64,000 bases of DNA from Apostichopus japonicus. Its lineage: Eukaryota > Echinodermata > Holothuroidea > Aspidochirotida > Stichopodidae. The stretch lies in NCBI RefSeq assembly GCF_037975245.1, contig NC_092565.1, positions 14,785,499 to 14,849,498 on the forward strand. The letters are read 5' to 3'. The translations under genes were made by a program, and so were the position numbers. How positions within the stretch are numbered: position 1 is the stretch's first letter; every line of letters starts with the position of its first letter. Below are positions 14,420 through 62,734 of this stretch, piece after piece. Under the pieces are notes generated by a model. The model was not told the DNA's origin. It made no database searches and saw nothing but the letters and a program-made list of their open reading frames with translations.

Positions 14420-14614
14420 AAAACAGACGTACACATTTAAAAGTAATATTGGGTCATGCAACTAACCTTTTATCAAAAGCAGCGCCACTAGACTATAACC
14501 TTTTACCTCGCATACAAACAGGCAAGATAAAGAAATGTACATATACACAATATAATCTTCTTTATAGTGCAAACTAAGAACATTGACGCTTCAATGCACT
14601 AGTGCACAACCGAC

Positions 14615-15058
14615 ATGGAGCATAACAGGGTAACAGAATCTCGTTTTCTTTGCTTAGCCGGGCACATGAAAACTCACAACGGGAACTTGACGGCACAACT
14701 GGCTAGCAACATCCCGATAATAACTGCGAATCAATGGTGGAAGCAGCATCAACGCAAGAAGATTCATGACGGCGAGATCAGCTACTATGATTCTGATCCG
14801 ACGCAGACGACATCCAAACGGGCGGTTGTTTTCTTGCATGGCAACCCGACATCTTCATATCTGTGGAGAGGGGTGATTCCGCGCGTGGAGGGTGTCGCCA
14901 GGTGTCTTGCACCGGACCTAATAGGTATGGGAAGATCCAGTAAACTTGCCAGATCTATGTATACTTTCGCCGATCATTACAAATACCTAAATGAATGGTT
15001 CGAGTCCATGAACTTGCCACGCAAGGTAAGCCAATGCTGCTACTTTTCTGGTATAATA

Positions 15059-15154
<96 letters not shown>

Positions 15155-33186: not shown

Positions 33187-34110
33187 GACATGAACAGCAG
33201 ACATGGAGCTTGTCTGGGAATCGAACCGGAGACATGGAGTTTGTCTGTCTCTCTCCAGTCCAGAGCACTACCAACTGCGCCACTAGAACTGTTGAGAATT
33301 AATGCTCGTTTCTAATATTTAAACTTCAAAGTCCAGAATGGAATCAGTAAAAGAGCAAAAATATAAAATGCTCTTTCTGGGGTTCGAACCGGAGACATGG
33401 AGTTTGTCTGTCTCTCCAGTCCAGAGCACTACCAACTGCGCCACTAGAACTGTTGAGAATTAATGCTCGTTTCTAATATTTAAACTTCAAAGTCCAGAAA
33501 GGAATCAGTAAAAGAGAAAAAATATAAAATGCTCTGTCTGGGTTTCGAACCAGAGACATGGAGTTTGTCTGTCTCTCCAGTCCAGAGCACTACCAACTGC
33601 GCCACTAGAACTGTTGAGAATTAATGCTCGTTTCTAATATTTAAACTTCAAAGTCCAGAAAGGAATCAGTAAAAGAGCAAAAAATCAAAATGCTCTGACT
33701 GGGGATCGAACCAGAGACAGAGAGTTTGTCTGTCTCTCTCTACAGAGCACTACCAACTGCGCTACTAGAACTGTTGAGAATATGCTGGTTTCTAATATTT
33801 AAACTTCAAAGTTCAGAATGGAATCAGTAAAAGAGTAAAAGTATAAAATGCTCTGTCTGTGGTTCGAACCGGAGACATGGAGTTTGTCTGTCTCTCCAGT
33901 CCAGAGCACTACCAACTGCGCCACTAGAACTGTTGAGAATTAATGCTCGTTTCTAATATTTAAACTTCAAAGTCCAGAATGGAAGAAGAAAAAGAACAGA
34001 AAAGCAAAATGCTCTGTCTGGGGATCGAACCGGAGACATGGAGTTTGTCTGTGTCTCTCCAGTCCAGAGCACTACCAACTGCGCCACTAGAACTGTTGAG
34101 AATTATTGCT
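33187..34110 (-). repeat. Six-copy tandem array of a tRNA-like unit (~162 bp)
   Basis: Each unit contains, on the minus strand, TGGCGCAGTTGGTAGTGCTC (A box) and GGTTCGAACC or GGTTCGATTCC (B box), then a non-tRNA tail of about 85 bp (AACTTCAAAGTCCAG region). The landmark ACCAACTGCG recurs near 33270, 33430, 33593, 33757, 33910 and 34075. This is the structure of a tRNA-derived SINE body multiplied in tandem rather than dispersed. Confidence 0.7.
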
Positions 34111-34870
34111 CGTGTCTACTTAAAGAGAGGTTTTGAGAGCACCAACAAAGGTGTGAACATATATTATTTTTAAACCCCCCTTTTCAATGGGGTTAAACAT
34201 AGTAAGTCTCCTTACTTTATCAGTTTTCCCGTTCGAAATAAATCAAAATAGTACTTTGGATCTTATCTGTAAAATCTTTTGGAGGGCTAGGCAGATTCCT
34301 TTGGGACCACGTATCTCCCGAACGGAAGCAGATATGGACCTGGGAGATGCAAATTTGGGCTCCTGAGCATCGGTTAACCCATGTTACGTCATTTGGGCGA
34401 AATCGATTTTGGGTCGATTTTTTGTCAGTTTTGGCAAAAACTGCAAATCAGGTTTTTTGCCCCCACGCCCCCACACAACACCCAATTCCAAATTAAACTT
34501 CAGATTCGTAATCAGCGTGTCGCGAACTACCAGAAAAGATACACATTGATCGCTTTTGCGACAAAAAGTTTTTTCACCTCAAAAAAAAGTACGACCGAAA
34601 AACTTTTACGACGAACAAAGGATTAAAACCTTTTGTTGTCCCTAAAAGTTTTTCGTTTTTCTATTGTTCCTCTGGAGTTGCAAACTGAGCGAAAGAATTG
34701 TCATAAGAGTGCGCTCGACGTATCTTGCCAGTGATACGTGATTTCAAAGCAGTCAAATCGGACCTTTGTTTGTCATCTTGAGTTTTATCTTGACATTTAT
34801 AAATAAATGGGTCAGTTTTGGCAAAAACTGCAAGGTATACGTACCCATTACGGTTTTTTATGGTATTATA
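34111..34870. other. Region without a recognised gene
   Basis: TTTTGGCAAAAACTGCAA occurs twice (near 34430 and 34814). Otherwise nothing recognisable. Confidence 0.45.
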
Positions 34871-41800: not shown

Positions 41801-44800
41801 ATAACACCCCAGTTACCAAAGATAACGCCCAAGTTACCAAAGATAACACCCCAAGTTACCAAAGATAAAACCCAAGTTACCAAAGATAACACCCCAAGTT
41901 ACCAAAGATAACACCCCAGTTACCAAAGATAACACCCTAGTTACCAAAGATAGCACCCAAGTTACCAAAGATAACACCCCAAGTTACCAAAGATAAAACC
42001 CAAGTTACCAAAGATAACACCCCAAGTTACCAAAGATAGCACCCAAGTTACCAAAGATAACACCCCAAGTTACCAAAGATAACACCCCAAGTTACCAAAG
42101 ATAACGCCCCAGTTACCAAAGATAACACCCCAAGTTACCAAGATAACGCCCAAGTTACCAAAGATAACACCCCAAGTTACCAAAGATAAAACCCAAGTTA
42201 CCAAAGATAACACCCCAAGTTACCAAAGATAACACCCCAGTTACCAAAGATAACACCCTAGTTACCAAGATAAAACCCAAGTTACCAAAGATAACACCCC
42301 AAGTTACCAAAGATAAAACCCAAGTTACCAAAGATAACACCCCAAGTTACCAAAGATAGCACCCAAGTTACCAAAGATAACACCCCAAGTTACCAAAGAT
42401 AATACCCCAGTTACCAAAGATAACGCCCAAGTTACCAAAGATAACACCCCAAGTTACCAAAGATAAAACCCAAGTTACCAAAGATAACACCCCAAGTTAC
42501 CAAAGATAAAACCCAAGTTACCAAAGATAACACCCCAAGTTACCAAAGATAGCACCCAAGTTACCAAAGATAACACCCCAAGTTACCAAAGATAACACCC
42601 CAGTTACCAAAGATAATGCCCAAGTTACCAAAGGTAACACCTCTTTCAACCACATTTGTACTAGACAGGACCTGTAAACCAATATGGAAAGTGTTTGATA
42701 GCAACATACATTGTCAACAAACTGACTGGTGTTTTTATCATGACATGGATTAATCATGCAAAGTCAAGAAGTGAATTGATCAGTTTCTTACTGTCATTGA
42801 GAAGCATCAACATACTCTTTATTTTTCCTTTCTTAACTTAAGACAACATTGACAATCTAAAGCTGTCAGCATGAATAAAACTGGATCAGATATTTCCAAT
42901 AACTTTCTTAGTTCTGTGTCTATATTTATCTCAAAGCTCAGTCTGGTCACTGATGTGAAAGAACTTCTTACCACCACAATGATCAAGATGGGAATCACCA
43001 CAAACCAAATGTGACCTTCATCATTTGTTAAATAGCATCTGCAAGAAAAAAAGGAAAGGAATAAAAACAGTAAAAAAAAACAATAATGAAGAAATGAAAG
43101 ACAATGTTAGGGAAACAATAATTACTCTCGTGAGATGATACCGAAGGTATTATTACGACTCATTCCAGGTTGATTGCCCTTGATGGTGTGTAGAAAACAA
43201 ACTTGTCCAGAGACAACAGAAAACAACCATTAATGGTCAAATGTTTATATTTCTGAACCTGTCACACAGCTACGGAAACATTACCGTGCCGTCAATATGT
43301 AGTGATCTTTCTCTTCAGTTTTTGCTGCAAAATGGAAAATTGCCATATCTTCTGAGAAAGACATGTTGACGTCACGTTAATGTTTCCATAAATGGCAGGC
43401 TGAAATTTATGTTTTGAACTAAAGGGGCTCCCACACGGTTATAAAAAGCTTGCTAGATACCTTATCATGGTTGCAACACACTATGAAACACTCTCATACA
43501 GTAAGACAAAGCTTGCTAGATACCTTAACATGGTTGCAACACACTATGAAACACCCTCATACAGTAAGACAAAGCTTGCTAGATACCTTAACATGGTTGC
43601 AACACACTATGAAACACTCTCATACAGTAAGACAAAGCTTGCTAGATACCTTAACATGGTTGCAACACACTATGAAACACCCTCATACAGTAAGACAAAG
43701 CTTGCTAGATACCTTAACATGGTTGCAACACACTATGAAACACTCTCATACAGTAAGACAAAGCTTGCTAGATACCTTAACATGGTTGCAACACACTATG
43801 AAACACTCTCATACAGTAAGACAAAGCTTGCTAGATACCTTAACATGGTTGCAACACACTATGAAACACCCTCATACAGTAAGACAAAGCTTGCTAGATA
43901 CCTTAACATGGTTGCAACACACTATGAAACACCCTCATACAGTAAGACAAAGCTTGCTAGATACCTTAACATGGTTGCAACACACTATGAAACACTCTCA
44001 TACAGTAAGACAAAGCTTGCTAGATACCTTAACATGGTTGCAACACACTATGAAACACTCTCATACAGTAAGACAAAGCTTGCTAGATACCTTAACATGG
44101 TTGCAACACACTATGAAACACTCTCATACAGTAAGACAAAGCTTGCTAGATACCTTAACATGGTTGCAACACACTATGAAACACCCTCATACAGTAAGAC
44201 AAAGCTTGCTAGATACCTTAACATGGTTGCAACACACTATGAAACACTCTCATACAGTAAGACAAAGCTTGCTAGATACCTTAACATGGTTGCAACACAC
44301 TATGAAACAGCCTCATACAGTAAGACAAAGCTTGCTAGATACCTTAACATGGTTGCAACACACTATGAAACACTCTCATACAGTAAGACAAAGCTTGCTA
44401 GATACCTTAACATGGTTGCAACACACTATGAAACACTCTCATACAGTAAGACAAAGCTTGCTAGATACCTTAACATGGTTGCAACACACTATGAAACACT
44501 CTCATACAGTAAGACAAAGCTTGCTAGATACCTTAACATGGTTGCAACACACTATGAAACACTCTCATACAGTAAGACAAAGCTTGCTAGATACCTTAAC
44601 ATGGTTGCAACACACTATGAAACACTCTCATACAATAAGACATACTTGCTAGATACCTTGACATGGTTGCAACACACTATGAAACACCCTCATACAGTAA
44701 GACAAAGCTTGCTAGATACCTTGACATGGTTGCAACACACTATGAAACACCCTCATACAGTAAGACAAAGCTTGCTAGATACCTTGACATGGTTGCAACA

Positions 44801-47800
44801 CACTATGAAACACCCTCATACAGTAAGACAAACCTTGCTAGATACCTTGACATGGTTGCAACACACTATGAAACACTCTCATACAGTAAGACAAAGCTTG
44901 CTAGATACCTTGACATGGTTGCAACACACTATGAAACACCCTCATACAGTAAGACAAAGCTTGCTAGATACCTTGACATGGTTGCAACACACTATGAAAC
45001 ACCCTCATACAGTAAGACAAAGCTTGCTAGATACCTTGACATGGTTGCAACACACTATGAAACACTCTCATACAGTAAGACAAAGCTTGCTAGATACCTT
45101 GACATGGTTGCAACACACTATGAAACACTCTCATACAGTAAGACAAAGCTTGCTAGATACCTTAACATGGTTGCAACACACTATGAAACACCCTCATACA
45201 GTAAGACAAAGCTTGCTAGATACCTTAACATGGTTGCAACACACTATGAAACACCCTCATACAGTAAGACAAAGCTTGCTAGATACCTTAACATGGTTGC
45301 AACACACTATGAAACACTCTCATACAGTAAGACAAAGCTTGCTAGATACCTTAACATGGTTGCAACACACTATGAAACACTCTCATACAGTAAGACAAAG
45401 CTTGCTAGATACCTTAACATGGTTGCAACACACTATGAAACACTCTCATACAGTAAGACAAAGCTTGCTAGATACCTTAACATGGTTGCAACACACTATG
45501 AAACACCCTCATACAGTAAGACAAAGCTTGCTAGATACCTTAACATGGTTGCAACACACTATGAAACACTCTCATACAGTAAGACAAAGCTTGCTAGATA
45601 CCTTAACATGGTTGCAACACACTATGAAACAGCCTCATACAGTAAGACAAAGCTTGCTAGATACCTTAACATGGTTGCAACACACTATGAAACACTCTCA
45701 TACAGTAAGACAAAGCTTGCTAGATACCTTAACATGGTTGCAACACACTATGAAACACTCTCATACAGTAAGACAAAGCTTGCTAGATACCTTAACATGG
45801 TTGCAACACACTATGAAACACTCTCATACAGTAAGACAAAGCTTGCTAGATACCTTAACATGGTTGCAACACACTATGAAACACTCTCATACAGTAAGAC
45901 AAAGCTTGCTAGATACCTTAACATGGTTGCAACACACTATGAAACACTCTCATACAATAAGACATACTTGCTAGATACCTTGACATGGTTGCAACACACT
46001 ATGAAACACCCTCATACAGTAAGACAAAGCTTGCTAGATACCTTGACATGGTTGCAACACACTATGAAACACCCTCATACAGTAAGACAAAGCTTGCTAG
46101 ATACCTTGACATGGTTGCAACACACTATGAAACACCCTCATACAGTAAGACAAACCTTGCTAGATACCTTGACATGGTTGCAACACACTATGAAACACTC
46201 TCATACAGTAAGACAAAGCTTGCTAGATACCTTAACATGGTTGCAACACACTATGAAACACTCTCATACAGTAAGACAAAGCTTGCTAGATACCTTAACA
46301 TGGTTGCAACACACTTTGAAACACCCTCATACAGTAAGACAAAGCTTGCTAGATACCTTAACATGGTTGCAACACACTATGAAACACTCTCATACAGTAA
46401 GACAAAGCTTGCTAGATACCTTAACATGGTTGCAACACACTATGAAACACTCTCATGCAATAAGACAAAGCTTGCTAGAATACCTCAACATGGTTGCAAC
46501 ACACTATGAAACACTCTCATATAGTAAGATATACTTGCTAGAATACCTCAACATGGTTGCAAAACACTATAAAACACTCTCATACAATAAGACATACTTG
46601 CTAGATACCTTGACATGGTTGCAACACACTATGAAACACTCTCATACAGTAAGACAAAGCTTGCTAGATACCTTAAAATGGTTGCAACACACAATGAAAT
46701 ACTTTCATACAGTTCTTTAATATATCTTTGTATCATAGTTATATATACTTGTGTAACAATGCTTGTGTAAATCCAGAGTATTCATGATTACACTGAATTT
46801 TAGTAGCAGCAAGCCATGCTACATATTGTGCCACCTTGCAGTCCGGTTGAATAAACAGCAATTTTGAATGATTTCAATCGAATATCGGTATCTCCAAAGT
46901 GACTTATTATCAGCCAAGCAATAAATACTCTTTCAATTTCTGTCTGTTGATAGGCTTTCCTCAACCTGAAGTATAAGATGCTGTTAAATGAACCAATTGA
47001 ATTACCAGTCTCAGGTGGTTGAACTTGGTTTCATTTTTGTACATTGCATACAGCTCTCCAAACCTTAATTATTGGTGACCATTTTAAAGGGTGTGAAGAC
47101 TCGCGCACAAAGAAAAGTCTGATGCCGGTAATCTGACCTAGATTCGAATGAGGTGTAACAGAAGTGTTTAACACCACCATCAATCCCAGATAATACACAC
47201 ACAGCTTGCTACCGTCGGTAATCGGGCACTAGTGTACAGTCAGAACATGCAACGGAAAGTTAACTTTTTCAGAGCGCGGCACGCGGTTTGGGGCGAGTCT
47301 TCAATGCCTTTAAATGAACAATTTGAGTACTTCTCATCATATTAACAGACATCACTCACATTTTCTTCTCTTCCGTTACTGGAGTTGTCATCATGAAAGC
47401 CAGAGCTGCTACCACAAAAATTAGAGGTAAACCTGAAAAGTTTAGAAAACAAATTTCTTTTTAATCCTACTACGCTGGTCGGGATTTGTAACATATCTCC
47501 TCTCGGTCTGTAAATCAATCAGTGCTCACTCAGAATATTTAAAATCATAGCAAGAATAGCAATTAGGAATTTTGGCACCACAAAAAAGTCAATTACTTGG
47601 CAGAAAGAATGGATCAAAACAAAATGTTTCTTAAGGTATCATGAAAACTTCTCTTTAAAATCTTAACACCATAATCACTTGGAAATCTCAAACTGGTGTG
47701 AGGTGAAATAAGAGTTGCAAGATTTCAAAAAAAAAGAAACTGCAAGTTAGGTTTGCTTCACTTCATATTCAGTATTATATTTCACTGACCAGAACCTCCC

Positions 47801-50800
47801 CTATCACAACACTGAGTCACCATCCTCCTCATCGAATAAATCTCATTTATTATTGGGGACCCGTTGTTCGATCTCCAATGGCAGAAGTTGATTGCTCATT
47901 AAACAAAAATTGCTAAAACATTTTCTGAAGTTTTACGTTGATATCGTCGTCCTCCTCATCATAATCATCATCAAATCATTTGTTGAGATTTTTTGTTTCA
48001 AATTTGGTGATATTTTGTGAATGCATCTAGCAACAGCAGAAGGAAAGATGTCGTCATGACAACTGCGCTGAAGGTGTTTTTGCTTTCTAAGTGAAGAAAA
48101 GCTTGCCATGATGCACAGACCACTAACTGAGTTCCACTACAGAGATATAGAGATCGGGTACAGACTAGTCAAGATAGGTAACATTCAATTAACCATACCT
48201 CATGTTAGGAGTAAGATATCATTGAGATTGGGTTTTCAACAATCAGTGTGGAAATGTGGAATATACCTTTTCCTAAGGTGGACTTTAAAATGAGTCAAGA
48301 ACTATGGCGGGCCATCAGTCTCAAATCATGGGGAATCGACTTCTACCGATTTAAATCGACATATACCAATTTCCTTTGACTTATACAATTTTCCAGCAGC
48401 TTAAATTGACTTCTACCGATTTAAATCATCATCACCGAAGTCTAAGGAAATTGGTATATGTCGATTTAAATCGGTATAAGTCGATTCCCCATGATTTGAG
48501 ACTGATGGCCTGCCATAAAGAACCTCCCCCTTGCATAATAATAATAATAACTAAGATTTATAATGCGCTAATTATAAACAAAATAGTTGTCAAAAGCGCC
48601 ATACATATAAATATGAATAGAAAGAAAAGCAAAAATAATAATGCAACAATGAAATATAATTACAAATCAAATTGAAAAATGTTTAGCATAGAGGTAAGTT
48701 TTTAGTTTAGATTTGAAAAGTGATTTATTAGGTATACATTTTAAATGGTTTGGGAGGGAATTCCACAATTTGGGACCAGAAACTGAAAAAGCACGGTTGG
48801 CATAAGTAACCCCATTGGTCCGAGGTTCAAGGAGGGTAATAAATTTTGATTGACGGGTGGCACGCTTGTATTGCTTTACTATTAGAAGTTCTGAAAGGTA
48901 GTTTAGAGATAAATGGTTATAAATACAATTGTGGATTAAAATAAGGACTTTGAAATGTATACATCAATAAAAACTCAGTTTTAGAAGGATTAAGTTTCAG
49001 TTTGTTAAGTTTCATCCAATTGTTGATTTCAGAAAAGGTGCTCTGAATTAAATTGACTTTAGTTTGGATATCAGTTGGGTCATCTAGGTTAACTTTAGTC
49101 CATATCTGCGTATCATCTGCATACATGTGAAAAGAGATGTTAGACTTACTAGCTAATAAATTATACATAAGTATAAATTATACATAAGGCATACTTTTTA
49201 GTGTTGTAGTAGTAGTAAGTTATAATTTTAGTTGTGTGTGTAAAATAAGTCAATCCATTTCTTGTAAATATTTGCAATGGTTTGAAAAGCTGTTACTTGA
49301 GATCGGAACATATTTTCCAATTTAAATTTTAAGTTGCCTTGACACTCTGACTTCTTAGTGGATACAGACATGTTTGTTTTCACTGGATGTGCTATACTTG
49401 ATCATGCTATTCATAAGTATATTTCTATTACAAAAACTACATTATTAATTATTCCATCTTTATCAGTATAGTTAATATATGATTATAGTTTTCAAAAAAC
49501 TAAGTATAAAGAACGTCGCTTTTCATGAGCAAGATCTCTTAAATTTGATGGTTGCCTAAATAAATTGCTCACCCTGGAATGAAATGTTAGTACTCATTGA
49601 AGAAACACATCAGAAAAACACAACTATATATATGGCCAGGACAGGAAGGAATTGAATTGGTGGTGGTGTATGCGGGAAGGAGGGAGGGAGGGTTAGTTTC
49701 AGTTGTCAGTAGAGGGTGATAAGAAGTATTCAAAGATATTTAAGGACAAGACCCTGGAAGGAAAGTGTAATTAATTAACAATCTTTTTGAGCAAGTTTAA
49801 ATTACGCACAACTGGTTTGAGAACTTACCCCAGCCAATGGCAAAGTAAACCCAGGTATGTTTCTTCTCAGATTCAAAGACGGTGATAATCTGCCGGTACA
49901 GATGGACACCCTCAGCCAACATCCAACAGAATGAAGACAAAAACAAATACTGCAGCAGGTATGTGGTAAATTGGCACAGCAGCTACGGGAAGAAAGATCG
50001 AGAATGTAACCATCAGGTACATGGTAAATCGGGCAAAGCATCTACGGGGAGAAAGATCAACAAGGTTAAACCATCAGGTACATGGTAAATCGGGCAAAGC
50101 AGTTACGGGGAGAAAGATCAACAAGGTTAAACCATCAGGTACATGGTAAATCGGGCAAAGCAGTTACGGGGAGAAAGATCAACAAGGTTAAACCATCAGG
50201 TACATGGTAAATCGGGCGAAGCAGTTACGGGGAGAAAGATCAACAAGGTTAAACCATCAGGTACATGGTAAATCGGGCGAAGCAGTTACGGGGAGAAAGA
50301 TCAACAAGGTTAAACCATCAGGTACATGGTAAATCGGGCGAAGCAGTTACGGGGAGAAAGATCAACAAGGTTAAACCATCAGGTACATGGTAAATCGGGC
50401 GAAGCAGTTACGGGGAGAAAGATCAACAAGGTTAAACCATCAGGTACATGGTAAATCGGGCGAAGCAGTTACGGGGAGAAAGATCAACAAGGTTAAACCA
50501 TCAGGTACATGGTAAATCGGGCGAAGCAGTTACGGGGAGAAAGATCAACAAGGTTAAACCATCAGGTACATGGTAAATCGGGCGAAGCAGTTACGGGGAG
50601 AAAGATCAACAAGGTTAAACCATCAGGTACATGGTAAATCGGGCGAAGCAGTTACGGGGAGAAAGATCAACAAGGTTAAACCATCAGGTACATGGTAAAT
50701 CGGGCGAAGCAGTTACGGGGAGAAAGATCAACAAGGTTAAACCATCAGGTACATGGTAAATCGGGCGAAGCAGTTACGGGGAGAAAGATCAACAAGGTTA

Positions 50801-53800
50801 AACCATCAGGTACATGGTAAATCGGGCGAAGCAGTTACGGGGAGAAAGATCAACAAGGTTAAACCATCAGGTACATGGTAAATCGGGCAAAGCAGTTACG
50901 GGGAGAAAGATCAACAAGGTTAAACCATCAGGTACATGGTAAATCGGGCAAAGCAGTTACGGGGAGAAAGATCAACAAGGTTAAACCATCAGGTACATGG
51001 TAAATCGGGCAAAGCAGTTACGGGGAGAAAGATCAACAAGGTTAAACCATCAGGTACATGGTAAATCGGGCAAAGCAGTTACGGGGAGAAAGATCAACAA
51101 GGTTAAACCATCAGGTACATGGTAAATCGGGCAAAGCAGTTACTGGGAGAAAGATCAACAAGGTTAAACCATCAGGTACATGGTAAATCGGGCAAAGCAG
51201 TTACGGGGAGAAAGATCAACAAGGTTAAACCATCAGGTACATGGTAAATCGGGCAAAGCAGTTACGGGGAGAAAGATCAACAAGGTTAAACCATCAGGTA
51301 CATGGTAAATCGGGCAAAGCAGTTACGGGGAGAAAGATCAACAAGGTTAAACCATCAGGTACATGGTAAATCGGGCAAAGCAGTTACGGGGAGAAAGATC
51401 AACAAGGTTAAACCATCAGGTACATGGTAAATCGGGCGAAGCAGTTACGGGGAGAAAGATCAACAAGGTTAAACCATCAGGTACATGGTAAATCGGGCAA
51501 AGCAGTTACGGGGAAGAAAGGAAGATATATGTGAATCAGGCATAAAGTAAAAAGATTTGTGGAGAGGAAGGATCATAAGTTTTGCATCAGGTATACCGGC
51601 AAAATATTGATTTACAATGAAAATTCCAAATCAAATCACATGAAAGAGGGCTTAAGGTGCATGGATATTAAGTTCAGTTACTGTATAATGAGATAGAAAG
51701 TAAGAGTTAAGGGATGCAAGAGGCAAATGGTTAAATGAAATTAGAATCAAGGGAAGTAAATGTCCCAAGACAGATCGATGACGGATATTTTACATACATA
51801 AGTAACAGAGCCTATCACTTCAATTACTTCACCTTTGGCTCTGTTCGCTCTAATAACGAGAGGAAGACCACTGCAACCAAGAGTAGAGACACCATGAGAT
51901 TTGAATGGATTGCATACCGAGCAGAGGAGATGGTTGATCTGAAAGACGAATGAAAGTTATCATTATAGCAATCAAAAGTCTTACGTTAAATCTTGTATTA
52001 CATGTTTAGTACTGAAATCCAGTAACAATGCTTACATGACTGGACTGACTTCTGATGGTTTGGAAAAATTTCAAAATCTCAAGTGCATGTTTGGTTGTGC
52101 TATAAAGGGGCAAAGGGTCCCTTGGTCTGTGGACCAGCTGACACTTACCAATGTTTCCTGGCTGAGGTTCTGAACCCAGATGCAAATTGCCAACAACAAT
52201 AAAAACAACAAAAAACTTACATACTTTTCGATTATCAGTCATACATTAACATCTGGATTCTGGAAGGATCATAAACTTTAACAACGAAATGAAGCTGAGA
52301 TGTTTAATAAATCTAGCAGCACCGTCTGTATAATTGGCTGGCAAAAATGAATTTCCGTCTTGTAGAACCGTCTGACCCCACACAGAAATGTAACGAGCAA
52401 AATATAACAAGGTTTATACCGACTAAATACACTACAATGCCTTAAAACTGAACAGGATCTGAAATAATTCTGATATACTGTATTGCTACTTTTAATAATT
52501 AAATTAAATACATACCTGAGGACAAAGTAAATCAAAAGAGCACATACTAATGCTACAATCGATATTGATAGGCCCACTTTGGTCACTACGGATCCAATCT
52601 CATCCCATAACTAAAATTACAACAAAACAAAAAAGAAAGAAGGAAAATAAGCAAGATATAACTAATATGAATGAAATTGACAGAAATCAATTGATGCTAT
52701 AAATGGCGGACTCTCCAAGCTTTCTCTGAAAGACATGCATCATCCTCTCAAGATGGAATGTGTACCCAATGGAGGGGATTTACCCTCCACCCTTTCACCT
52801 GGGAGTCTACAAAAACTATTGCCACACTGCCTCCTTTATAAACTCCTGGGCAGCCCCATGATTTACTTTGATACAAGATCAGATACATTCAACCTCTGAC
52901 ATTTGCTATAAATATTGAGGAATTTTACTTAATTATTTGCAAATGCATTTGTGTTTATACCATAAAGAAAATGATATTACTTTCTCCTCCTGCTTTCCCC
53001 CGTCCCCCAACAGATGCCAACTATTCTATTAATCAACAGATTTTCAAAATATACTGTGCTGGTAATTATTGGCTCCATTAATGAAATGTTCAAATACTAC
53101 ATGTCACTTCATGCATACATGATAATATATGCTTGTAATGTCATGCACCCTTGATGTCAGAATGCATGTCAATGTCTGGTTTGATTGATGTCATTATACA
53201 TGGAATGTCATGCATTCATGATGTCAGAATGTATGTCATGCACAAACTTGATATCATTTTACATAACATGTCATGCATGTGTGATATAAAGACAGATATT
53301 TCCTGTATGCATGATGTCAGAATGCATGACATGTCCTGTTAGCATGATGTCAGAATGTTTGTCAGGTCCTTTATGCATGATTTAATGATACATGCCATGT
53401 TCTGTATGCATGATATCAGAATGCATGTCATGTCCTGTATGCATGATGTCAGAATGCATGCCATGTCCTGTATGCATGATGCCAGAATGCATGCCATGTC
53501 CTGTATGCATGATGTCAGAATGTTTTTCATGTCCTGTATGCATGATGTAATTATACATGCCATGTCCTGTATGCATGATGTCAGAATGCATATCATGTCC
53601 TGTATGCATGATGTCAGAATGTTTGTCAGGTCCTTTATGCATGATTTAATGATACATGCCATGTCCTGTATGCATGATGTCAGAATGCATGTCATGTCCT
53701 GTATGCATGATGTCAGAATGCATGCCATGTCCTGTATGCATGATGCCAGAATGCATGCCATGTCCTGTATGCATGATGTCAGAATGTTTTTCATGTCCTG

Positions 53801-56800
53801 TATGCATGATGTAATGATACATGCCATGTCCTGTATGCATGATGTCAGAATGCATGTCATGTCCTGTATGCATGATGTCAGAATGCATGTCATGTCCTGT
53901 ATGCATGATGTCAGAATGTTTGTCAGGTCCTTTATGCATGATTTAATGATACATGCCATGTCCTGTATGAATGATGTCAGAATGCATGTCATGTCCTGTA
54001 TACATGCATGATGTCAGAATGCTTGACATGTCCTGTATATGTATGACGTAATGATGCATATCATGTCTTAAATCTGAGCATAAAGTCACTGACACATCTA
54101 CTGTAACAGCTGTTGTTTGTGGGTATGAATGTCCAGGAACCTGCAAACTTACAGTTGGTGGACGTGGTGTACCAATACTCAAGAGAACCGAAAAGCTGGT
54201 TGTATGAGTACATGAGCACTTTGCGACTAATTCTGTAGCATTATCGTCAATTTTGCAGCCATCAAACTTCCAAAATATAGTGTCACTGTAAAAGGAAGAA
54301 TAAAATGTATTATTTACTCAAAGTAACAAATAATAGTCCTCATAGCAGTAGATTTAAACTTCTTACTTTATAGCTGGTACGGCTGCTAAACTTTCAAAAA
54401 ACAAGCTTCAATCAAACAATTTTTTGAACAGCAAAGAAAGGTTTTTGTTATATTCTTTACCAATTTTCTTCTTTCTTTCTCTATATCATTGGGATGAGCT
54501 TAAGGTTAAGGTTAAGGTGGTAACACTTGGTAAAGCGCACATTACTGTTAAAACACTCAATGGCGCTGAACAACAATACAATTATAAAAACGATTTCTTA
54601 AATAAGTGAGTCTTCAAAGCACATTTGTCATAATTCTTAAAACTTCATAAAGTAAAATTATCATACCAAAATAAATCTATATACTTGCTTGAGCTACTTC
54701 CTTCTTCCCCCCCAAAAAAGTTATAAAATCATATCAATTTTATTAAAATCATGTAATATGGTTCATATCGCAAACCAATCAACTTCCTATGAAGTTGATA
54801 AATTTCAGTTTTTTCAAATTTTAGCAACACAAAATAACAACAAAACCTGAATGTCAAATTGTCTAATCCAATGAATGAACACCTCCTATATCCTTCGTAT
54901 TGTCTTTTGTTTCTTTTGAAGATGAAAATATTAGACACACTTTCGATGAATATAAAATTCAGTCTACCCAGAAAATGACTGAAGAGATATACAGCAAATG
55001 AAATTTCAAACTTTTTCTGGAACTTTCTGAAACAATGTATGTAACCAGATTCCACCACCCCCCCTGCCCCCAGCATATCTTACAATGCTAACATATTAAC
55101 ATAACCTTACTTTATGGTCTTGCATTTTTTTTTCATTATGTAAAAGTATCTTCTGTTGGCTGAAGTTGTTTATGCGGCAACATTCATGTAAATAAGGCAA
55201 ACACCTCATCCTCATCGCATTTTGAATTGTGGAGATATGAATTATTCAAATTTTGAAGATATTTTGTAAATATGCATCTGGCAAACAGCAGATGAAAGAT
55301 GTCATCAGGGTGCCTCAGCTGATTATGTCTTTGTTTCCTTTATAAATATTTCAATAATTCATCCACAGAAAATGATAGTGACGAGGAGTATTTCTGTAAA
55401 CAGATTTTTGATGAAATTCATAATACAGAGAACTGCATTGACAGCTAGCTAGGCAACCATTGCCAAATGTGTCAGGGATCAAGGATAAGTCAACAAGACA
55501 ATCATAATCACCTATTAAATAAGTAAAGCTTTTGAAGAGCATTTGCCCAGATGATATCACAGACCTCCCACTGTGACCCAACTTCCTTGAGCAGCTGAAA
55601 GTTTAGTCTTTCAAAATAGGTTATAATTCAAACATATCTTGAGTTAAGGACCAGAAATTGAGATAGGGTTTTTAACTAGCAGTTTGAATTATTTTTTCTT
55701 TTTGTTTGAACACTGTTTTGCCAACAGAATATCCCTTTATCAGCTTCTTACATTTTAACAAAGTGTAAAGTACTTGACAATAATAATTATTTGCTATAAA
55801 TCAATGATGATGGTTAACTGGGCAAGAAATAAAAGTTTAAATTAGCACTCACTTCCAGTCAGTGTCCTCTTCTTCAAAATAAGCACAGTGTGGCTCCTGG
55901 TACTCGGAGAGATTCTGTGGCGTTCATGAGAGGATAGATAAATTGATACCAATTGATCCATGTGAAGAGATTACAGGGCAAGTCTGTTTGTCCCCTAGGA
56001 GGGGATTATACGGACAATAACACACAATACAATATGATAACAGGGGAAGGCCTAGTCCTGTTTGACCACTAGGAGGGGACTCTACACACAATAACACACA
56101 ATACAATATAATAACAGGGGTATAGCCCTGTTTGACCACTAGGAGGGGACTCTACAGAAAATAACATACTCTACAATATAATAATCGGGTAGCCCTGTTT
56201 GTCCCCTATGATGGGGCTCTACAGAAAATAACACACAATACAATATAATAATAGGGGTAGCCCTGTTTGACCACTAGGAGGAGACTCTACACACAATAAC
56301 ACACAATACAATATAATAATAGGGGTAGCCCTGTTTCAAGACCGCTAGGAAGGGACTCACAGCATAACATGATAATAGGGGTAGGCCTATTCCCTGTTTG
56401 ACCACTAGAAGGGGACTCTACAGAGAATGGCACAATGTAAAAAGATAAAAGTTTGTCCCCTTTACAGAGAATTACACTAAAATAAATATCGTGCATAAAA
56501 GCAACTTACTTTCCACATTCTCTTAATACTCAGGCTCTTTAGTGGATAAGCAGTTTGCTAACAGTTTTATTTTATTTTGAAATAAATATCACCGAACACT
56601 TTGTGATAATTCCACTTCAAACGCAGTCATTTATTATTCTGCTTGTTATTCTTACGTGCTGTGAGTCAATGGATTTAAGTGCTGTGAGTCAATGGATACA
56701 CCTTGTGATGAAAAATGGTACATACAGTATACTATCACTGCTGTATTTACTGAAAAATACTCGAAGGGGCATTTCAACTTGTGATGCAGGCACCCAGACA

Positions 56801-59800
56801 ATTAATGTGCCTCCTTGGCAGGCAGCAGCGCCAGTAAAACATCCTTGACACACTCCTAAGCCAAGTAGAATTTCTTTTCTTACAGATAACATACATACTG
56901 TAGTTAGAATATTGGAACAAGACTTGTATGCAAGCATACTTACTACATCATTACTACATCCTTACTACATCCTTACTACATCCTTACTATATCATTACTA
57001 CATCATTACTACATCATTACTATATCATTACTATATCATTACTACATCATTACTTCATCCTTACTATATCATTACTACATCCTTACTATATCATTACTAT
57101 ATCATTACTTCATCCTTACTACATCCTTACTTTATCATTACTACATCATTACTACATCATTACTATATCATTACTACATCATTACTACATCCTTACTATA
57201 TCATTACTATATCATTACTTCATCCTTACTACATCCTTACTTTATCATTACTACATCATTACTACATCCATTACTATATCATTACTACATCATTACTACA
57301 TCATTACTATATCATTACTACATCATTACTATATCATTACTATATCATTACTACATCATTACTTCATCCTTACTACATCCTTACTATATCATTACTATAT
57401 CATTACTTCATCCTTACTACATCATTACTATATCATTACTTCATCCTTACTTTATCATTACTACATCATTACTACATCATTACTACAGATATCATTACTA
57501 CATCATTACTACATCATTACTATATCATTACTATATCATTACTACATCATTACTACATCCTTACTATATCATTACTACATCATTACTACATCCTTGCTAT
57601 ATCATTACTATATCATTACTTCATCCTTACTATATCATTACTACATCCTTACTATATCATTACTATATCATTACTTCATCCTTACTACATCCTTACTTTA
57701 TCATTACTACATCATTACTACATCCATTACTATATCATTACTACATCATTACTACATCATTACTATATCATTACTACATCCTTACTATATCATTACTATA
57801 TCATTACTACATCATTACTTCATCCTTACTACATCCTTACTATATCATTACTATATCATTACTTCATCCTTACTTTATCATTACTACATCATTACTACAT
57901 CATTACTATATCATTACTACATCATTACTACATCCTTACTATATCATTACTACATCATTACTACATCATTACTATATCATTACTATATCATTACTACATC
58001 ATTACTACATCCTTACTATATCATTACTACATCATTACTACATCCTTACTATATCATTACTACATCATTACTACATCCTTACTATATCATTACTATATCA
58101 TTACTACATCATTACTTAATCCTTACTATATCATTACTACATCATTACTATATCATTACTATATCATTACTACATCATTACTACATCATTACTATATCAT
58201 TACTTCATCCTTACTTTATCATTACTACATCATTACTATATCATTACTACATCATTACTACATCATTACTATATCATTACTACATCATTACTACATCCTT
58301 ACTATATCATTACTACATCCTTACTATATCATTACTACATCATTACTACATCCTTACTATATCATTACTATATCATTACTATATCATTACTTCATCCTTA
58401 CTTTATCATTACTACATCATTACTACATCATTACTATATCATTACTACATCATTACTACATCCTTACTATATCATTACTACATCATTACTACATCATTAC
58501 TATATCATTACTATATCATTACTACATCATTACTACATCCATTACTATATCATTACTATATCATTACTACATCATTACTACATCATTACTATATCATTAC
58601 TATATCATTACTATATCATTACTACATCATTACTACATCCATTACTATATCATTACTATATCATTACTATATCATTACTACATCATTACTACATCCTTAC
58701 TTCATCCTTACTATATCATTACTACATCATTAGTATATCATTACTATATCATTACTATATCATTACTATATCATTACTACATCATTACTATATCATTACT
58801 ACATCATTACTACATCATTACAATATCATTACTATATCATTACTACATCCTTTAAACCTGAGAACAAAAGCTGTTAATAGTTTGACGCATTGATTTCACA
58901 GACAATGGATGTTCAAAACCTTTAAGTATCTGCCTTTCATTAAAACTATAGCTTTTTTTGGCAGTTTCAGAATACAGATAAAAGGGACTTTTGCTTACCT
59001 TGTAAGTGGTTTTGAAGTCAAATTGTGTCAAACTAAAGATCTCATTATTCACGTAAGTGTTAATCTGTATCAGAGCACTACCAACATTATATTGAGTATC
59101 GTCGTCCTTTACCGAGACATTGGCGCCAGGCTTGTCATAGCTTTCATTTTGTTTTACAATTGTGACCACAATTACCACCGTTACATTTTCTGCATGAAAG
59201 AGATGGAAGATCCTTTGTAAATGATAAAAGTATTGAGAAGAGAGATGGGAGATATGATTGTCTTCATTGACACTTAAAATAAAGCGATACTGGAAGCTGT
59301 GAGATTTCTTGCCTAAATGCTGTATCTGGTTTAGAAACAGAACTCTTGTGTCACTCTGAGAGGACAATATGTTATGATTTAGACAGATATATGCATCCTT
59401 CATAATCTAAGAAAGGCTAAGGTGTGGAGACAAATATATAACAAGAGGTCAATCTATGGAGTTTCAGATGTCATTTGAATTGACTTACAGTATATCAGGA
59501 GTTTTTGACACACATTATTGCCATTTAGGGCCAAATTTGACCTATGACCTCAACCCTTAACAACACATAAGATTATATTTCAATCGTCCCATCATTCTTA
59601 ACATATCTTGTGGTTTAATGACAAATATTAAAATTACTCTATATTTCACTAGAAAATCAGTTTCTAATCATTTTCATCTGTGCTGGCAAACTTTTTTTAC
59701 AAACAAGTTTACAAACTTTGTTGCAGTGACAGCATTAACCTCTAAAGTTAGGCCTATCTTCCTCGTGCCATGGTGCAATTTTGCTTGACTAAACCTTTTC

Positions 59801-62734
59801 GGCATCTTCACTTGCCTTAAATTGTCAGGACTTTGTCACAGGTAGCTTTTAAATTGGTGGTATTCAGCACCCCTGATTCATCAGGTCAAAATTATGATAA
59901 CAAGAACATGAAAAAAAGAACAATTAAGTAATCCTGTATGCAAATTCAGCTCCTGACCTCTCTAAAATGACAGCTTGGAAATGGAGAAATTAATTTAAAG
60001 GGTGTGAAGACTCACGCAAAAAGAAACATCTAATGCCGGTAATTTGACCTAGTTTTGAATGAGGTGTAACAGAAGTGTTAAACACCACCATCGATCCCAG
60101 AAAATACACACACAGCTTGCTACCGTCGGTAATTAGACACTAGTGTACAGTCAGTACATACAGCTGCGGTCAATACCCACTGCACAGTATACAAACAATA
60201 CAGCGATGGACATCTCAGGTCCAGCTAAAGATAACAAGGTATCACATTTCATTACTGTCTGCATTTTGCAGCGACACGGACAAAACATCACTTGCAAGCA
60301 ACAGAAAGTTAACTTTTTGAGATGGCCGCACACGGTTTGGGGGTGAGCTAGTCTTCAATGCCTTTAAGCAATATATCAACCAAGGTCATAATTGTTGAGT
60401 TCATGCCATGTATTGGAACGGAATGGATCTCTCATTTACTCTGTTAAGCGCCTATAATAAGTTTCTTGCAACAACCATGAGAATTTTGTTCAGACTGCTT
60501 GTCATCTATCTGGAAGCCATTTACCTCGACTACCAAACAAAGTCTATTTGGACACCATGCTTGTAGACAGGAACTTTTCTTCTAGAGAATTTAACTTGTT
60601 GATTCTTCCTATGCAGCGAGTGTTTGTTTTTCAAGTTTTTGCGGGCCTTATAAAACTGCAGATAATTTCGGCAGGAGATGAACAAATACTTAGAAGAGGA
60701 GACCTTAATTATGATTTAGGTAGCAGCTCAGATCTGAATTTCTACTAACAAAAACTAACAATACATGCTCGCTTTTGTTCTAAGAAAAGCACACTGCCTA
60801 CTTAGGACCTCAAGGGGCTCTGTAAATCATTTCTGTTATATCAAATTTGTGCCTTAATTTTCAACTTAAATGATGTTAAACATGTACTGTATACGGTGCA
60901 GTACTAGTTCACAGTTTTTGCAGAAAAACTGCTTGAATATAGTTTTTAATGTAATTTGTTCCATAAACTGTCATATAGTCATCTTAATTGTCATGGTCCT
61001 CATCATCTTCATAAGTCATAACGAGATTTATAAAGTGCCATAATTATATGCTCTGCAGGCTGTACTTGTCACTGGGCAAAACAAACATTTACACCCCCAA
61101 GGAAGGTGTCACAGCCTGAACTTAATTGCCAAACCAAAGCAAGGTTTGAAACCAGTTCTGAACCAAACTGGATTAGAGATTTCTGGCCAAGCTTTATGAT
61201 AATAAAGAGGATAATTATTGTATTTACTGCAGACAGAAGTTTTCACCTAAAATGACCTTTGACCTCCAGAGATAAGAATAGAGTTCTGGTATTAAACTAT
61301 GCTGTATCTACATACTAAGTCCAAAGTTCATAAAAAAACTTAACTTTTGAAGTTGTCTTATTTACAAGCTTTTCAGACTTTCACCTCTGGTGACCTTTAA
61401 TGATCTTTGACTTCCATCACAATTAAACAATATGCCTAAAGTTTATTCCTTTTTGGGTTGAACCATATGCAAAAGTATGAACTTGATCTTTAAGCATTGC
61501 TTTGGAGTTTTTGCATTTATTATATTTCAAGACCTTTGATCTCCAATCAGCTGTGTTCTCACTATGTTCAATCAAAATTGAGTCTTATAAGACTTGCAGC
61601 AAGGGTTGCAGATTGATATGAGTGGAAGCACAAGAGTACCCTTTTTACTTTAGGAGTTGCAGAAAATGGTGATGATGAGGAATCACCAATAACAAGAATT
61701 TTCAGCAACTGCTGGGAAAAAGTTAAACCACTCATATACTGTAGTGGTTAACAACTATATATCACAGAGCAAAGTATATTCTGGAAAAAAATGGTTGCAG
61801 TTGAGAAAAGTCTTTCCAGATTGAAGTGAAACTTTGAATACACTTTTCTACTTATTGCAGGGATGAGCCTGGCCGCCTGGGGTAAAAAAAAAAACGGAAC
61901 TTTGCAAAAATTGCGGTATAGGCTTCAGTTTGCATATGCTACAGTGTGTTAGGATAATGACTTTGTTCCCCCTGCAGGTAGAAAAGAAATCACGGATATT
62001 CCGCGAATTCGCGGAAAAGCTCATGCCTGTTATTGGGCCTCACCTGGAAACTCATCAAAAGCTCCGTTGGGAATGCTAACAGATAACTCTGGTTCGCTGT
62101 GATCCCCAACATCATCTTCGCCATTAGCTTTCGTCGAGGTGAATGTGAACCCGTCGTGTTTCAGATTTTCACTCTTATTTCCTACCAGGTTTACTTCTGC
62201 TGTAAAAGTCATAAAATTTTGAACAAGTCCTTTTTTGTGACTACATGACCTTAATTCTATTTGGTAGTGATTGAGGTACTCAGTTAAGATGCATGGGATA
62301 TGGCAGGAATTAGTAGAAATCAGTTGCCAAAGAAGGGTATAGCCTGAACTTGCTTCAAAATGAACGTATGAGCAGAGGCGAGTGCGTGCTGGAACTTCCA
62401 GAAAAGTTGCACTTTAGTGGTAAATATAGAAATTAATAATGATCTACCTTAATGTTCTACGATGGCATGCATGCTTAAATCGGACTTATTTTCTACTTTT
62501 GATAAGTGTGACTATAACTGCACTTCTTCAAAATCATATTTTTGAAGTTTGGTTGCCATTGAATACTACCAAACATTAATATCTCAATTGATTATCTTCC
62601 CTATAAAATGAGATGACTTTAATACCAAAATTGTCTAGTTGCACAGTGGTAGCGAAAGGTTCTTCAGGATATGTCTCTCTCGTCAAGATGTCATCTATGA
62701 TACCAAACAGGGCAACAGCAGCGACTTCAGTATT
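38834..62734 (-). CDS. Adhesion G-protein-coupled receptor, fifteen 3' exons (5' part outside window)
   Basis: A cell-surface receptor with a GAIN/GPS autoproteolysis region and a class B2 seven-helix domain. Minus-strand exons: 62734-62626, 62199-62044, 59189-58999, 55914-55853, 54285-54153, 52610-52516, 51938-51833, 49982-49829, 47432-47360, 43038-42972, 41566-41469, 41237-41117, 40365-40324, 39729-39658, 38980-38834. Phases match at every junction and the sum is 541 codons plus stop. The first three encode the GAIN region with several N-x-S/T sites; 55914 and 54285 encode the GPS; 52610 to 40324 the seven helices; the last two a 73-residue tail rich in Lys then Ser/Thr. The weakest junction is the first donor (GTATTA). 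Ligand and subfamily are not recognisable. The extracellular N-terminus lies beyond the right edge. Introns on this gene are unusually rich in tandem repeats. Confidence 0.87.
39010..39500. repeat. Tandem repeat, ~74-bp unit, about 6.5 copies (intron)
   Basis: TTCACAGAACCAGGGAGAGA recurs near 39018, 39092, 39167, 39241, 39390 and 39464, with a variant near 39316. The array lies in the last GPCR intron, starting about 30 bp from the final exon acceptor. Confidence 0.85.
41298..41397. mobile_element. Truncated copy of the TTTAAAGG inverted-repeat element
   Basis: The right ~100 bp of the element seen whole at 59993-60367 (AGTTAACTTTTTCAGATGGC ... GTCTTCAATGCCTTTAAA). It lies in a GPCR intron. 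Confidence 0.65.
41697..42640. repeat. 22-bp minisatellite, about 43 copies (intron)
   Basis: Unit GTTACCAAAGATAACACCCC plus AA, with frequent variants (AAAACCC, AGCACCC, one-base deletions). It lies in the GPCR intron between exons 43038-42972 and 41566-41469. Minus-strand open frames here are repeat artefacts. Confidence 0.9.
43448..46710. repeat. 63-bp minisatellite with a 1,322-bp higher-order repeat (intron)
   Basis: About 52 copies of a 63-bp unit (GCTTGCTAGATACCTTAACA ... GTAAGACAAA). A marked variant (ACAATAAGACATACTTGCTA, one base shorter) occurs at 44631 and again at 45953, exactly 1,322 bp apart (20 x 63 + 62). The order of CTC/CCC/GCC variants between the markers repeats, so a 21-unit block was duplicated. 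Because 63 is a multiple of three, plus-strand frames stay open for up to 835 codons as a 21-residue repeat (NMVATHYETLSYSKTKLARY). There are no splice or start signals and it lies inside a minus-strand GPCR intron, so I do not call a gene. Confidence 0.95.
47092..47314. mobile_element. TTTAAAGG inverted-repeat element, medium copy
   Basis: The left end TTTAAAGGGTGTGAAGACTC and the inverted right end TTTAAAGGCATTGAAGACTC form ~20-bp terminal inverted repeats. It has an internal deletion relative to 59993-60367. Its right end is only about 46 bp from GPCR exon 47432-47360. Confidence 0.7.
48307..48514. mobile_element. Foldback element with ~70-bp arms
   Basis: The left arm GGGCCATCAGTCTCAAATCA ... 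CATATACCAATTTCC is matched inverted at 48440-48514. The spacer repeats parts of the arm (TTCTACCGATTTAAATC). It is non-coding, in a GPCR intron. Confidence 0.75.
48530..49200 (-). mobile_element. 5'-truncated LINE 3' end (L2/CR1-like)
   Basis: On the minus strand about 49168-48920 encodes FHMYADDTQIW with the catalytic YADD and NNWMKLNKLKLNPSKTEFL, typical of reverse transcriptases. After a deletion, about 48905-48680 encodes TNGVTYANRAFSVSGPKLWN followed by SLPNHLK, the usual C-terminal end of these LINEs. The element ends at an AAT/TTA microsatellite near 48540, the expected tail. It is inserted in the same orientation as the GPCR transcript. Confidence 0.8.
49955..51517. repeat. 61-bp minisatellite derived from the TM3-exon splice acceptor
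   Basis: About 25 nearly identical copies of a 61-bp unit (GTTACGGGGAGAAAGATCAA ... CATCAGGTACATGGTAAATC on the plus strand). The leftmost unit is the authentic boundary of GPCR exon 49982-49829: plus-strand GCAGGTATGTGGTAAATTGG (exon) and CAGCTACGGGAAGAAAGATC (junction) align with the repeat. Each copy therefore carries about 28 bp of exon and the acceptor tract. On the minus strand the acceptor CCCGTAG becomes CCCGTAA in almost all copies; only the first copy (near 50043) keeps CCGTAG. Confidence 0.85.
53150..54050. repeat. 33-bp minisatellite with longer periodicity (intron)
   Basis: The unit is CATGTCCTGTATGCATGATG + TCAGAATGCATGC. A variant block (GTTTGTCAGGTCCTTTATGC ATGATTTAATG) recurs at 53357, 53621 and 53918, 264 and 297 bp apart (8 and 9 units). 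Since 33 is a multiple of three, both strands stay open for over 200 codons. It lies in the GPCR intron directly beside the GPS exon (54153). Confidence 0.9.
54153..55914 (-). other. GPS (autoproteolysis) motif of the adhesion GPCR, two exons
   Basis: The exons at 55914-55853 and 54285-54153 join (phase 2) to give CAYF...DWNDTIFWKFDGC ... CSCTHTTSFSVLL. The paired cysteines, the tryptophans and the C-x-C-x-H-x-T-S-F-x-V-L block are the GPS signature. The expected cleavage bond is His-Thr in CTHTTS; these residues are intact, so self-cleavage is plausible. GPS chemistry is family knowledge; cleavage of this protein is inferred. Confidence 0.85.
55960..56440. repeat. Tandem repeat, ~65-bp unit, about 7 copies (intron)
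   Basis: GCCCTGTTTGACCACTAGGA ... ACACAATACAATATAATAAC recurs with variation. It lies in the GPCR intron just upstream (transcript sense) of GPS exon 55914-55853. Confidence 0.85.
56937..58850. repeat. ~12-bp minisatellite of 1.9 kb (intron)
   Basis: About 160 copies of a 12-bp unit of the form TATATCATTACT / TACATCATTACT / TACATCCTTACT in irregular order. Frames stay open for hundreds of codons as Ile-Thr-Ser-Leu-Leu-Tyr-His-type repeats; not a gene. It lies between GPCR exons 59189-58999 and 55914-55853. Confidence 0.95.
59993..60367. mobile_element. TTTAAAGG inverted-repeat element, full-length copy
   Basis: It has terminal inverted repeats TTTAAAGGGTGTGAAGACTC and, at the right end inverted, TTAAAGGCATTGAAGACT (interrupted by a small insertion). 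At 375 bp it has no coding capacity. The TTAA within the termini suggests a TTAA-targeting family, but the duplication itself is ambiguous. It lies in a GPCR intron. Confidence 0.65.
60368..62043. other. GPCR intron sequence, no element recognised
   Basis: Unique-looking AT-rich intron sequence between exons 62199-62044 and 59189-58999. No other exon found. Confidence 0.5.

Follow-up and report, generated by a model that had tools for sequence, protein, structure and literature searches.

A minisatellite copied from an intron/exon border of a sea cucumber adhesion GPCR gene, with the acceptor AG missing from nearly all copies

In an adhesion GPCR gene of Apostichopus japonicus, the intron preceding the TM3 exon contains a 61-bp minisatellite, the unit of which is a copy of the border between that intron and exon. 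The acceptor AG of the border has become AA in nearly all of the intronic copies. We consider it probable (roughly 0.82) that the array is a mirage-type minisatellite and a passenger in the gene, its AG lost through a G-to-A change in a founder unit that homogenisation spread. The features on which the analysis is based are listed below; the window is the whole 64-kb stretch of DNA that was analysed.

52516-54285, minus strand: upstream exons of the host gene, GPS (54285-54153) and TM1 (52610-52516); from reading frames and Pfam
51833-51938, minus strand: TM2 exon, donor AAG/GTGAAG at 51832; from frames
49983-51832, minus strand: host intron of 1850 nt; from frames
51521-51600, minus strand: candidate older, degenerate copies past the array edge, borderline; from alignment with the unit
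49956-51520, minus strand: 61-bp minisatellite across the intron/TM3-exon border, 25.7 copies; from TRF, the unit list and border alignment against shuffles
51484-51520, minus strand: partial distal copy, likewise AA; from the unit list, alignment and dinucleotide tabulation
50081-51483, minus strand: 23 full AA copies; from the unit list
51118-51178, minus strand: one of these 23 copies, carrying CCCAG at 51144-51143; from the unit list and frames
50020-50080, minus strand: intronic copy adjoining the exon copy, with TAG at 50043-50042 followed by ATG, a possible live decoy; from the unit list and frames
50012-50016, minus strand: candidate branch point CTGAT, with the A some 30 nt before the real acceptor; read from the sequence
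49983-49984, minus strand: predicted real acceptor AG, CTTCCCGTAG then CTGCTG; from frames and introns at the matching place in paralogs
49829-49982, minus strand: TM3 exon (LLCQFTTYLLQYLFLSSFCWMLAEGVHLY...), donor GGG/GTAAGT at 49828; from frames, Pfam and homology to ADGRD1 and ADGRL3
49956-49982, minus strand: opening 27 nt of the TM3 exon, which correspond to the unit's exonic portion (21 nt as far as the next TACCTG, then TACCTG itself); from alignments

The host was identified as an adhesion GPCR gene on the minus strand by matches of the spliced GPS-TM3 protein to the Pfam families 7tm_2 (E=3.4e-28) and GPS (E=1.4e-6). The predicted border of the TM3 exon at 49984-49983, where a previous sequence-only reading of this DNA had placed the acceptor, is supported by phase, homology and paralogs. 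The phase-0 junction EPK/LLC is open, ADGRL3 aligns through the border without a gap and ADGRD1 with a gap of one residue, and an acceptor-like AG stands just before the matching codon in the paralogs L013, L016 and L018, as well as in L012, read on the other strand. A different start of the TM3 exon was rejected, since the next AG within the exon, in CTGCTGCAG, would remove a conserved Cys. The candidate branch point was chosen by the general consensus of such motifs, and its CTGAT recurs in the full units.

TRF delimited the array to 49956-51520, with a period of 61 and 98% matches; its ends lie close to the 49955 and 51517 read previously. The unit list contains 24 full intronic units and one partial distal unit upstream of the exon copy, and the stretch from 50020 to 51520 (1501 nt) makes up 81% of the host intron. 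The intronic copies are homogenised and nearly identical in the core, whereas the exon copy and the distal edge are diverged. Beyond the distal edge, the segment 51620-51521 aligned to the unit with a score of 40 (300 shuffles: 95% 34, maximum 41) and 51700-51521 with a score of 49 (95% 43, maximum 56). An exact 26-bp word of the unit occurs 24 times in the 671.6-Mb genome, always at the array locus, which shows that the array does not belong to a dispersed element. Minisatellites abound in the window, which has 14 clusters of period 20-250 and at least 2.5 copies. Searches with Rfam and ARAGORN gave no matches in the 64-kb window.

The unit aligns with the TM3 border with a local score of 72, compared with a mean of 15.4 and a maximum of 26 among 500 dinucleotide shuffles. 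The sequence-only reading had proposed this alignment and had let the proposal depend on its being better than chance, which it is by far. Taken separately, the intron half of the unit scored 45 (shuffle maximum 26) and its exon half 30, barely above the shuffle maximum of 28. Of the 58 columns in which the unit aligns with the exon copy, 49 are identical and nine are mismatches; the alignment has two gaps, one of 2 bases and one of 1. The exonic part of the unit is out of frame because of a 1-nt insertion. The unit is thus a confirmed copy of the intron/exon border of the TM3 exon.

The dinucleotide at the acceptor position was tabulated for every copy, as the sequence-only reading had suggested. 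It is AA in 24 of the 25 intronic copies and AG in one, the copy adjoining the exon copy. The previous description, in which the CCCGTAG of the real site had become CCCGTAA in nearly all copies and the copy next to the exon retained AG, holds; the approximately 24 decoy acceptor regions that it placed upstream of the real acceptor were counted as about 25, nearly all of them without AG. It mentioned neither that the consensus unit contains no AG anywhere nor that the copy 51118-51178 has gained a CCCAG. The AG-free run from 50043 to 51143 (1101 nt) is the longest on the minus strand of the window. AG-free 61-mers make up 4.7% of the minus-strand stretches sampled outside the array and 13.5% of shuffled units. 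With a rough acceptor matrix built from general base frequencies, the real site scored 4.82, the AG of the adjoining copy 4.55 and the CCCAG copy 6.31. The AG of the adjoining copy is 59 nt upstream of the real AG and the first one encountered in that direction; its use would shift the frame, and the extended frame has no stop within the TM3 exon. Use of the CCCAG copy as an acceptor would give an immediate in-frame TAA.

Border-spanning arrays look common in the A. japonicus genome, mostly on the donor side. Among 104 other sampled exon loci, arrays spanning the donor were found at seven, six of which are independent (L049 and L050 are paralogs), and arrays spanning the acceptor at none. The intronic copies of the donor-side arrays kept GT in 39 of 40 cases. 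The sample comprised 60 of 134 listed kinase matches, mostly shorter ones and chosen before the sequence was seen, 20 of 70 myosin matches, 11 of 126 kinesin matches and 13 of 15 adhesion GPCR matches, the other two being the window's own gene; all 19 ABC-transporter matches, L037 and L038 were outside it. Six of the spanning arrays were detected by TRF; L022 was added as the seventh, TRF having stopped 53 nt short of the match. Strand or frame is doubtful at three of the 104 loci (L039, L047 and L104), of which L039 was checked by eye. The dinucleotide count is limited to copies fitting the pattern of neighbouring bases; the patterns of L015 and L022 were one base off, and there the G in front was determined visually, and in L022 two of six intronic copies align GT only after a one-base shift. 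Inspection by eye of 15 further exon matches in the 10-kb loci revealed no overlapping array. L025 has a 9-bp array at a distance of 4 nt from its GPS match, and L071 an acceptor-side array that lies 47 nt from the match, short of the border.

A general tie between the other arrays of the receptor gene and its splice borders was rejected, as only weak scores were found. The comparison covered six arrays (the 146-bp one was left out) and both ends of seven exons (the TM6 exon was left out), giving 13 splice borders and one stop-codon end, with the donor ends of TM7b and TM5 misplaced by one and several bases, respectively; neither of these two ends contributes to any count. The 63-bp array scored a weak 25 against TM7b (shuffle maxima 24 and 21). 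The 74-bp array scored 30 against Cterm (shuffle maximum 19), as expected because that array sits inside the tested stretch.

Based on these observations, an origin of the array can be proposed. A tandem duplication probably took in the final 37 nt of the intron together with the opening 21 nt of the TM3 exon, a segment bounded by the short direct repeats TACCTGATG in the intron and TACCTGCTG in the exon; against this counts that the TACCTG microhomology comes from one locus only. Unequal exchange or slippage would then have multiplied the unit to about 25 copies. The intronic duplicates are free of coding constraint, and their exonic part carries the 1-nt insertion. The acceptor AG would have become AA by a single early G-to-A change, in the unit that founded the expanded part, and homogenisation would have spread it. 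The copy adjoining the exon probably kept its AG, which is one step shorter than loss and regain. It is identical to its neighbours except for two bases around the AG, and this near-identity, odd for an old edge copy, is a point against the model. The gene is probably spliced at the real AG using the branch point of the exon copy, with the array as a passenger.

Selection against mis-splicing could also explain the missing AG. Acceptor-side duplicates carrying AG would be harmful because the spliceosome uses the first AG downstream of the branch point, and only AG-less units would expand, whereas donor duplicates would be tolerated. The prevalence of AA and the AG-free consensus fit this explanation, as does the finding that all seven border-spanning arrays of the sample are donor-side, and it is kept alive by the donor-side arrays that keep GT. 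We nevertheless regard it as unlikely. The AG that remains is in the most dangerous copy, which should have lost it first, and another copy carries the still better-scoring CCCAG. The loss is explicable as a single event: with 9 of 58 columns changed, one or both AG columns would be struck by chance with a probability of 0.29. AG-free 61-mers are not rare, and chance is enough to explain that none of the 104 loci has an acceptor-side array (P 0.46 or 0.19), so that the donor/acceptor contrast stems from the donor excess. The 6:0 ratio of sides among the independent cases corresponds to a two-sided binomial p of ~0.03. Furthermore, amphioxus mirages often keep AG or GT, reportedly without disturbing splicing, in the account given in PMC3087553. 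The sequence-only reading had offered both selection and an early G-to-A change; the latter, preceding expansion, is at least as good an explanation as selection, which is weakened by the position of the AG, the gained CCCAG and the chance of 0.29. Conversely, AG loss has no counterpart in the donor-side arrays; a purely neutral reading has to leave this contrast, which involves one acceptor case, to chance, and that speaks against it. The broader idea that splicing filters border-spanning arrays, present at several per cent of exons, so that donor-side arrays with GT are tolerated and acceptor-side ones survive only after AG loss, is rather unlikely.

It is very unlikely that the adjoining copy is a used alternative acceptor (TAG/ATG, +59 nt) and the array a splicing switch for the receptor. 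Its score is near that of the real site, it has the sole AG at the aligned place among near-identical copies, and the extended frame would stay open in the exon. However, the additional 59 nt would put the conserved TM3 sequence out of frame, and the matrix is rough. An ordinary satellite or mobile-element repeat resembling the border by chance, for which the wealth of minisatellites in the window might speak, is extremely improbable: chance similarity is ruled out by the shuffles, and a dispersed or mobile repeat by the single locus of the unit word.

Splice-site-derived minisatellites have precedents. The human gene IFI6 (gene 6-16, G1P3) has a minisatellite that consists of splice-site sequence and adjoins a genuine splice site, a 12-bp donor repeat said to supply used donor sites. 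The sea cucumber array resembles it in composition and position, but its unit is an acceptor with the AG removed; at the aligned position, AG is missing from 24 of 25 copies. A paper on earthworm metallothionein genes (PMC12783039) may describe something related. The long AG-free stretch upstream of the acceptor resembles the AG exclusion zones of exons with distant branch points (PMC1431707); however, it is a by-product of a repeated AG-free 61-mer and does not border on the real site: the decoy AG at 50043, 59 nt upstream of the real AG, stands between the two.

The array belongs to a known kind, the mirages of amphioxus, described as minisatellites across exon-intron borders at Adh3, the globins BflGb6 and BflGb9, TnC and PGBD5 (PMC3087553, PMC3902484). 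Such border-spanning minisatellites, described in cephalochordates, were proposed as an origin of new introns. As in mirages, sequence from the two sides of one border, intron and exon, is present in the units, the duplicates are intronic, the authentic border with its splice signal is kept at one edge of the array, and a homogenised core is flanked by diverged edge copies. According to the amphioxus accounts, mirages may lie on the acceptor or the donor side, and evolve in concert within a cluster, with the border copies excluded, as in BflGb6 (PMC3087553). The sea cucumber array differs in occurring in an echinoderm, in its 25.7 copies, compared with 3 and 6 in the BflGb6 haplotypes as described, and in that AG is gone from almost every copy, where many of those described in amphioxus hold AG or GT. 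Titles and opening lines of abstracts in the open-access literature searched disclosed no border-spanning minisatellites in echinoderms.

In the A. japonicus genome, minisatellite formation gives rise to splice-site arrays repeatedly, and they are no special device of the receptor gene. If seven in 104 is typical, the genome holds many arrays of near-identical competing splice sites whose use RNA-seq would show directly, and splice-site choice, intron gain and selection on decoy acceptors would become testable at scale. The contrast between donor and acceptor sides merits a genome-wide test. If splicing does filter such arrays, the sea cucumber genome would offer a natural experiment in which the spliceosome has to choose among identical tandem splice sites.

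The array lies in an adhesion GPCR gene on the minus strand of the window, with further 7TM pieces of the receptor below 43.1 kb. The following exons belong to the gene.

Exons of the adhesion GPCR gene
54285-54153, minus strand, GPS exon
52610-52516, minus strand, TM1 exon
51938-51833, minus strand, TM2 exon
49982-49829, minus strand, TM3 exon

The spliced GPS-TM3 protein matches Pfam 7tm_2 (3.4e-28) and GPS (1.4e-6), and its PDB hits are ADGRD1 and ADGRL3. The intron separating TM2 from TM3 measures 1850 nt, of which 81% belongs to the array stretch 50020-51520. The next intron, following the TM3 exon, holds a fragment of a reverse-transcriptase element (48920-49177, minus strand; RVT_1 E=1.8e-5, short of the curated threshold). 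A 63-bp array of about 52 copies (43445-46713) lies within an intron region of the receptor gene, and plus-strand ORFs of 856 and 693 aa stay open through it because the unit length is 3 x 21. Elsewhere in the window, a haloalkane dehalogenase / Renilla-luciferase-like enzyme is located at 14603-16190 (plus strand), a 196-aa piece of which (15600-16187) matches the AncHLD-RLuc ancestor with E=1.6e-79. The unit of a 161-bp tandem array (33211-34118) visually resembles tRNA-derived sequence on the minus strand, and neither ARAGORN nor Rfam found a tRNA there. Two ORF pieces (from 58852-59406 and 62030-62413), on the side of the GPS exon where an 11-bp array lies at 56940-58849 (unit TTACTACATCA, about 173 copies), had no Pfam match.

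TRF placed the array in the TM2-TM3 intron at 49956-51520, with a period of 61, 25.7 copies, and 98% matches. Its minus-strand unit, TACCTGATGG...CCCCGTAACTGCTTTGCCC...CATG, aligns over the full unit length with the border of the intron and the TM3 exon, ...CTTCCCGTAG|CTGCTGTGCC..., with agreement in 49 of 58 aligned columns. The alignment score of 72, against a maximum of 26 in 500 shuffles, upholds the proposal of the sequence-only reading that the array derived from the TM3 acceptor border. The intron half of the unit alone scored 45 (shuffle maximum 26, n=500) and the exon half alone 30 (shuffle maximum 28, n=500). The real border is supported by its phase 0 (EPK|LLC), by the alignments with ADGRL3, which is gap-free there, and ADGRD1, which has a one-residue gap, and by an acceptor-like AG at the matching codon of receptor paralogs L013, L016, and L018, and of L012 on the other strand. 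The sequence comparison thus supports the acceptor border of the TM3 exon as the probable origin of the unit. The first tandem duplication may have had its natural ends at the intronic TACCTGATG and the exonic TACCTGCTG, which are separated by 58 bp. A 1-nt insertion in the exonic stretch of the unit fits expectation, since the duplicates are non-coding.

The sequence-only reading had noted that the acceptor AG is missing from nearly all copies and retained in the one adjoining the exon copy, and the per-copy tabulation bore this out: 24 of the 25 intronic copies (24 full, one partial) have AA at the aligned acceptor place, and the sole AG is that of the adjacent copy. The consensus unit is without any AG, and the array therefore contains an AG-free run of 1101 nt, the longest on the minus strand of the window; the longest on the plus strand, 1245 nt, lies in the 11-bp array. 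AG-free stretches of unit size are not rare, as they account for 418 of 8910 minus-strand positions sampled every 7 bases outside the array. One array copy (51118-51178) has CCCAG. Under the first-AG model of acceptor choice, as outlined in PMC1431707, branch points within the array would reach the AG at 50043 ahead of the real AG. A splice to the AG at 50043 would lengthen the exon by 59 nt and shift its frame; a splice to the CCCAG copy would bring an immediate stop. A rough acceptor matrix gave scores of 4.82 for the real site, 4.55 for the adjacent copy, and 6.31 for the CCCAG copy.

Given that 9 of 58 columns changed, the probability that one or both of the AG columns were among them by chance is 0.29, and the AG loss can therefore be a single event copied through the array. 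Selection against mis-splicing, which the sequence-only reading had suggested as one possibility, is not demonstrated: a single substitution speaks for it, and the AG that persists occupies the place from which selection should have removed it earliest.

The genome assembly (671,581,487 bases, 35 contigs) contains donor-side arrays at two paralogous TM3 exons (L015 and L022). A further sample of exons, 60 from kinase, 20 from myosin, and 11 from kinesin genes, yielded donor-spanning arrays at L039, L077, and L100, and at the paralogs L049 and L050.

Minisatellites at and across donor sites, with intronic copies keeping GT
L015:1337-1525, 45 bp x 4.2, GT in 3/3 (by eye)
L022:1119-1448, 54 bp x 6.4, GT in 6/6 (by eye; two copies with a one-base shift)
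L039:706-1071, 31 bp, GT in 10/11
L049:1-405, 70 bp, GT in 4/4
L050:1-404, 70 bp, GT in 4/4
L077:496-874, 42 bp, GT in 8/8
L100:479-736, 53 bp, GT in 4/4

Border-spanning arrays were thus present at 7 of 104 exon loci, seven on the donor side and none on the acceptor side; six were flagged by TRF, and L022 was added by eye. GT is kept in 39 of 40 intronic copies. Random placing of arrays predicts 0.77 (sampled-flank density) or 1.65 (window density) per 104 one-side borders, and the respective Poisson probabilities are 0.00015 or 0.007 for at least six arrays and 0.46 or 0.19 for zero. Donor-side arrays are therefore in excess, and the zero on the acceptor side is by itself unremarkable, which slightly reduces the odds that selection shaped the TM3 array or that splicing filters such arrays by side. 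The contrast between donor and acceptor is suggestive but small, with six independent donor cases and a single acceptor case that came to light independently of the sampling.

One arginine kinase exon, L131, is identical across 65 aligned residues of 69 to PDB 3JU5, a structure from A. japonicus. Two more distant exons of this family are L130, which also has 3JU5 as its best match but is not identical to it, and L132, whose best match is creatine kinase. One contig, C20, carries two apparently intronless open frames of 989 aa (18443595-18446393 and 18474619-18477417), each with three guanidino-kinase domain matches.

Literature searches of open-access papers, covering titles and the starts of abstracts, found no echinoderm case of a border-spanning minisatellite. 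The TM3-border array is of the same kind as the amphioxus 'mirages', which, according to PMC3087553 and PMC3902484, occur in Adh3, globin, TnC, and PGBD5 genes on both donor and acceptor sides, with AG or GT present in many copies and no splicing disturbance reported. The donor-site minisatellites seen in the A. japonicus sample lie at exons of adhesion GPCR, kinase, and myosin genes.
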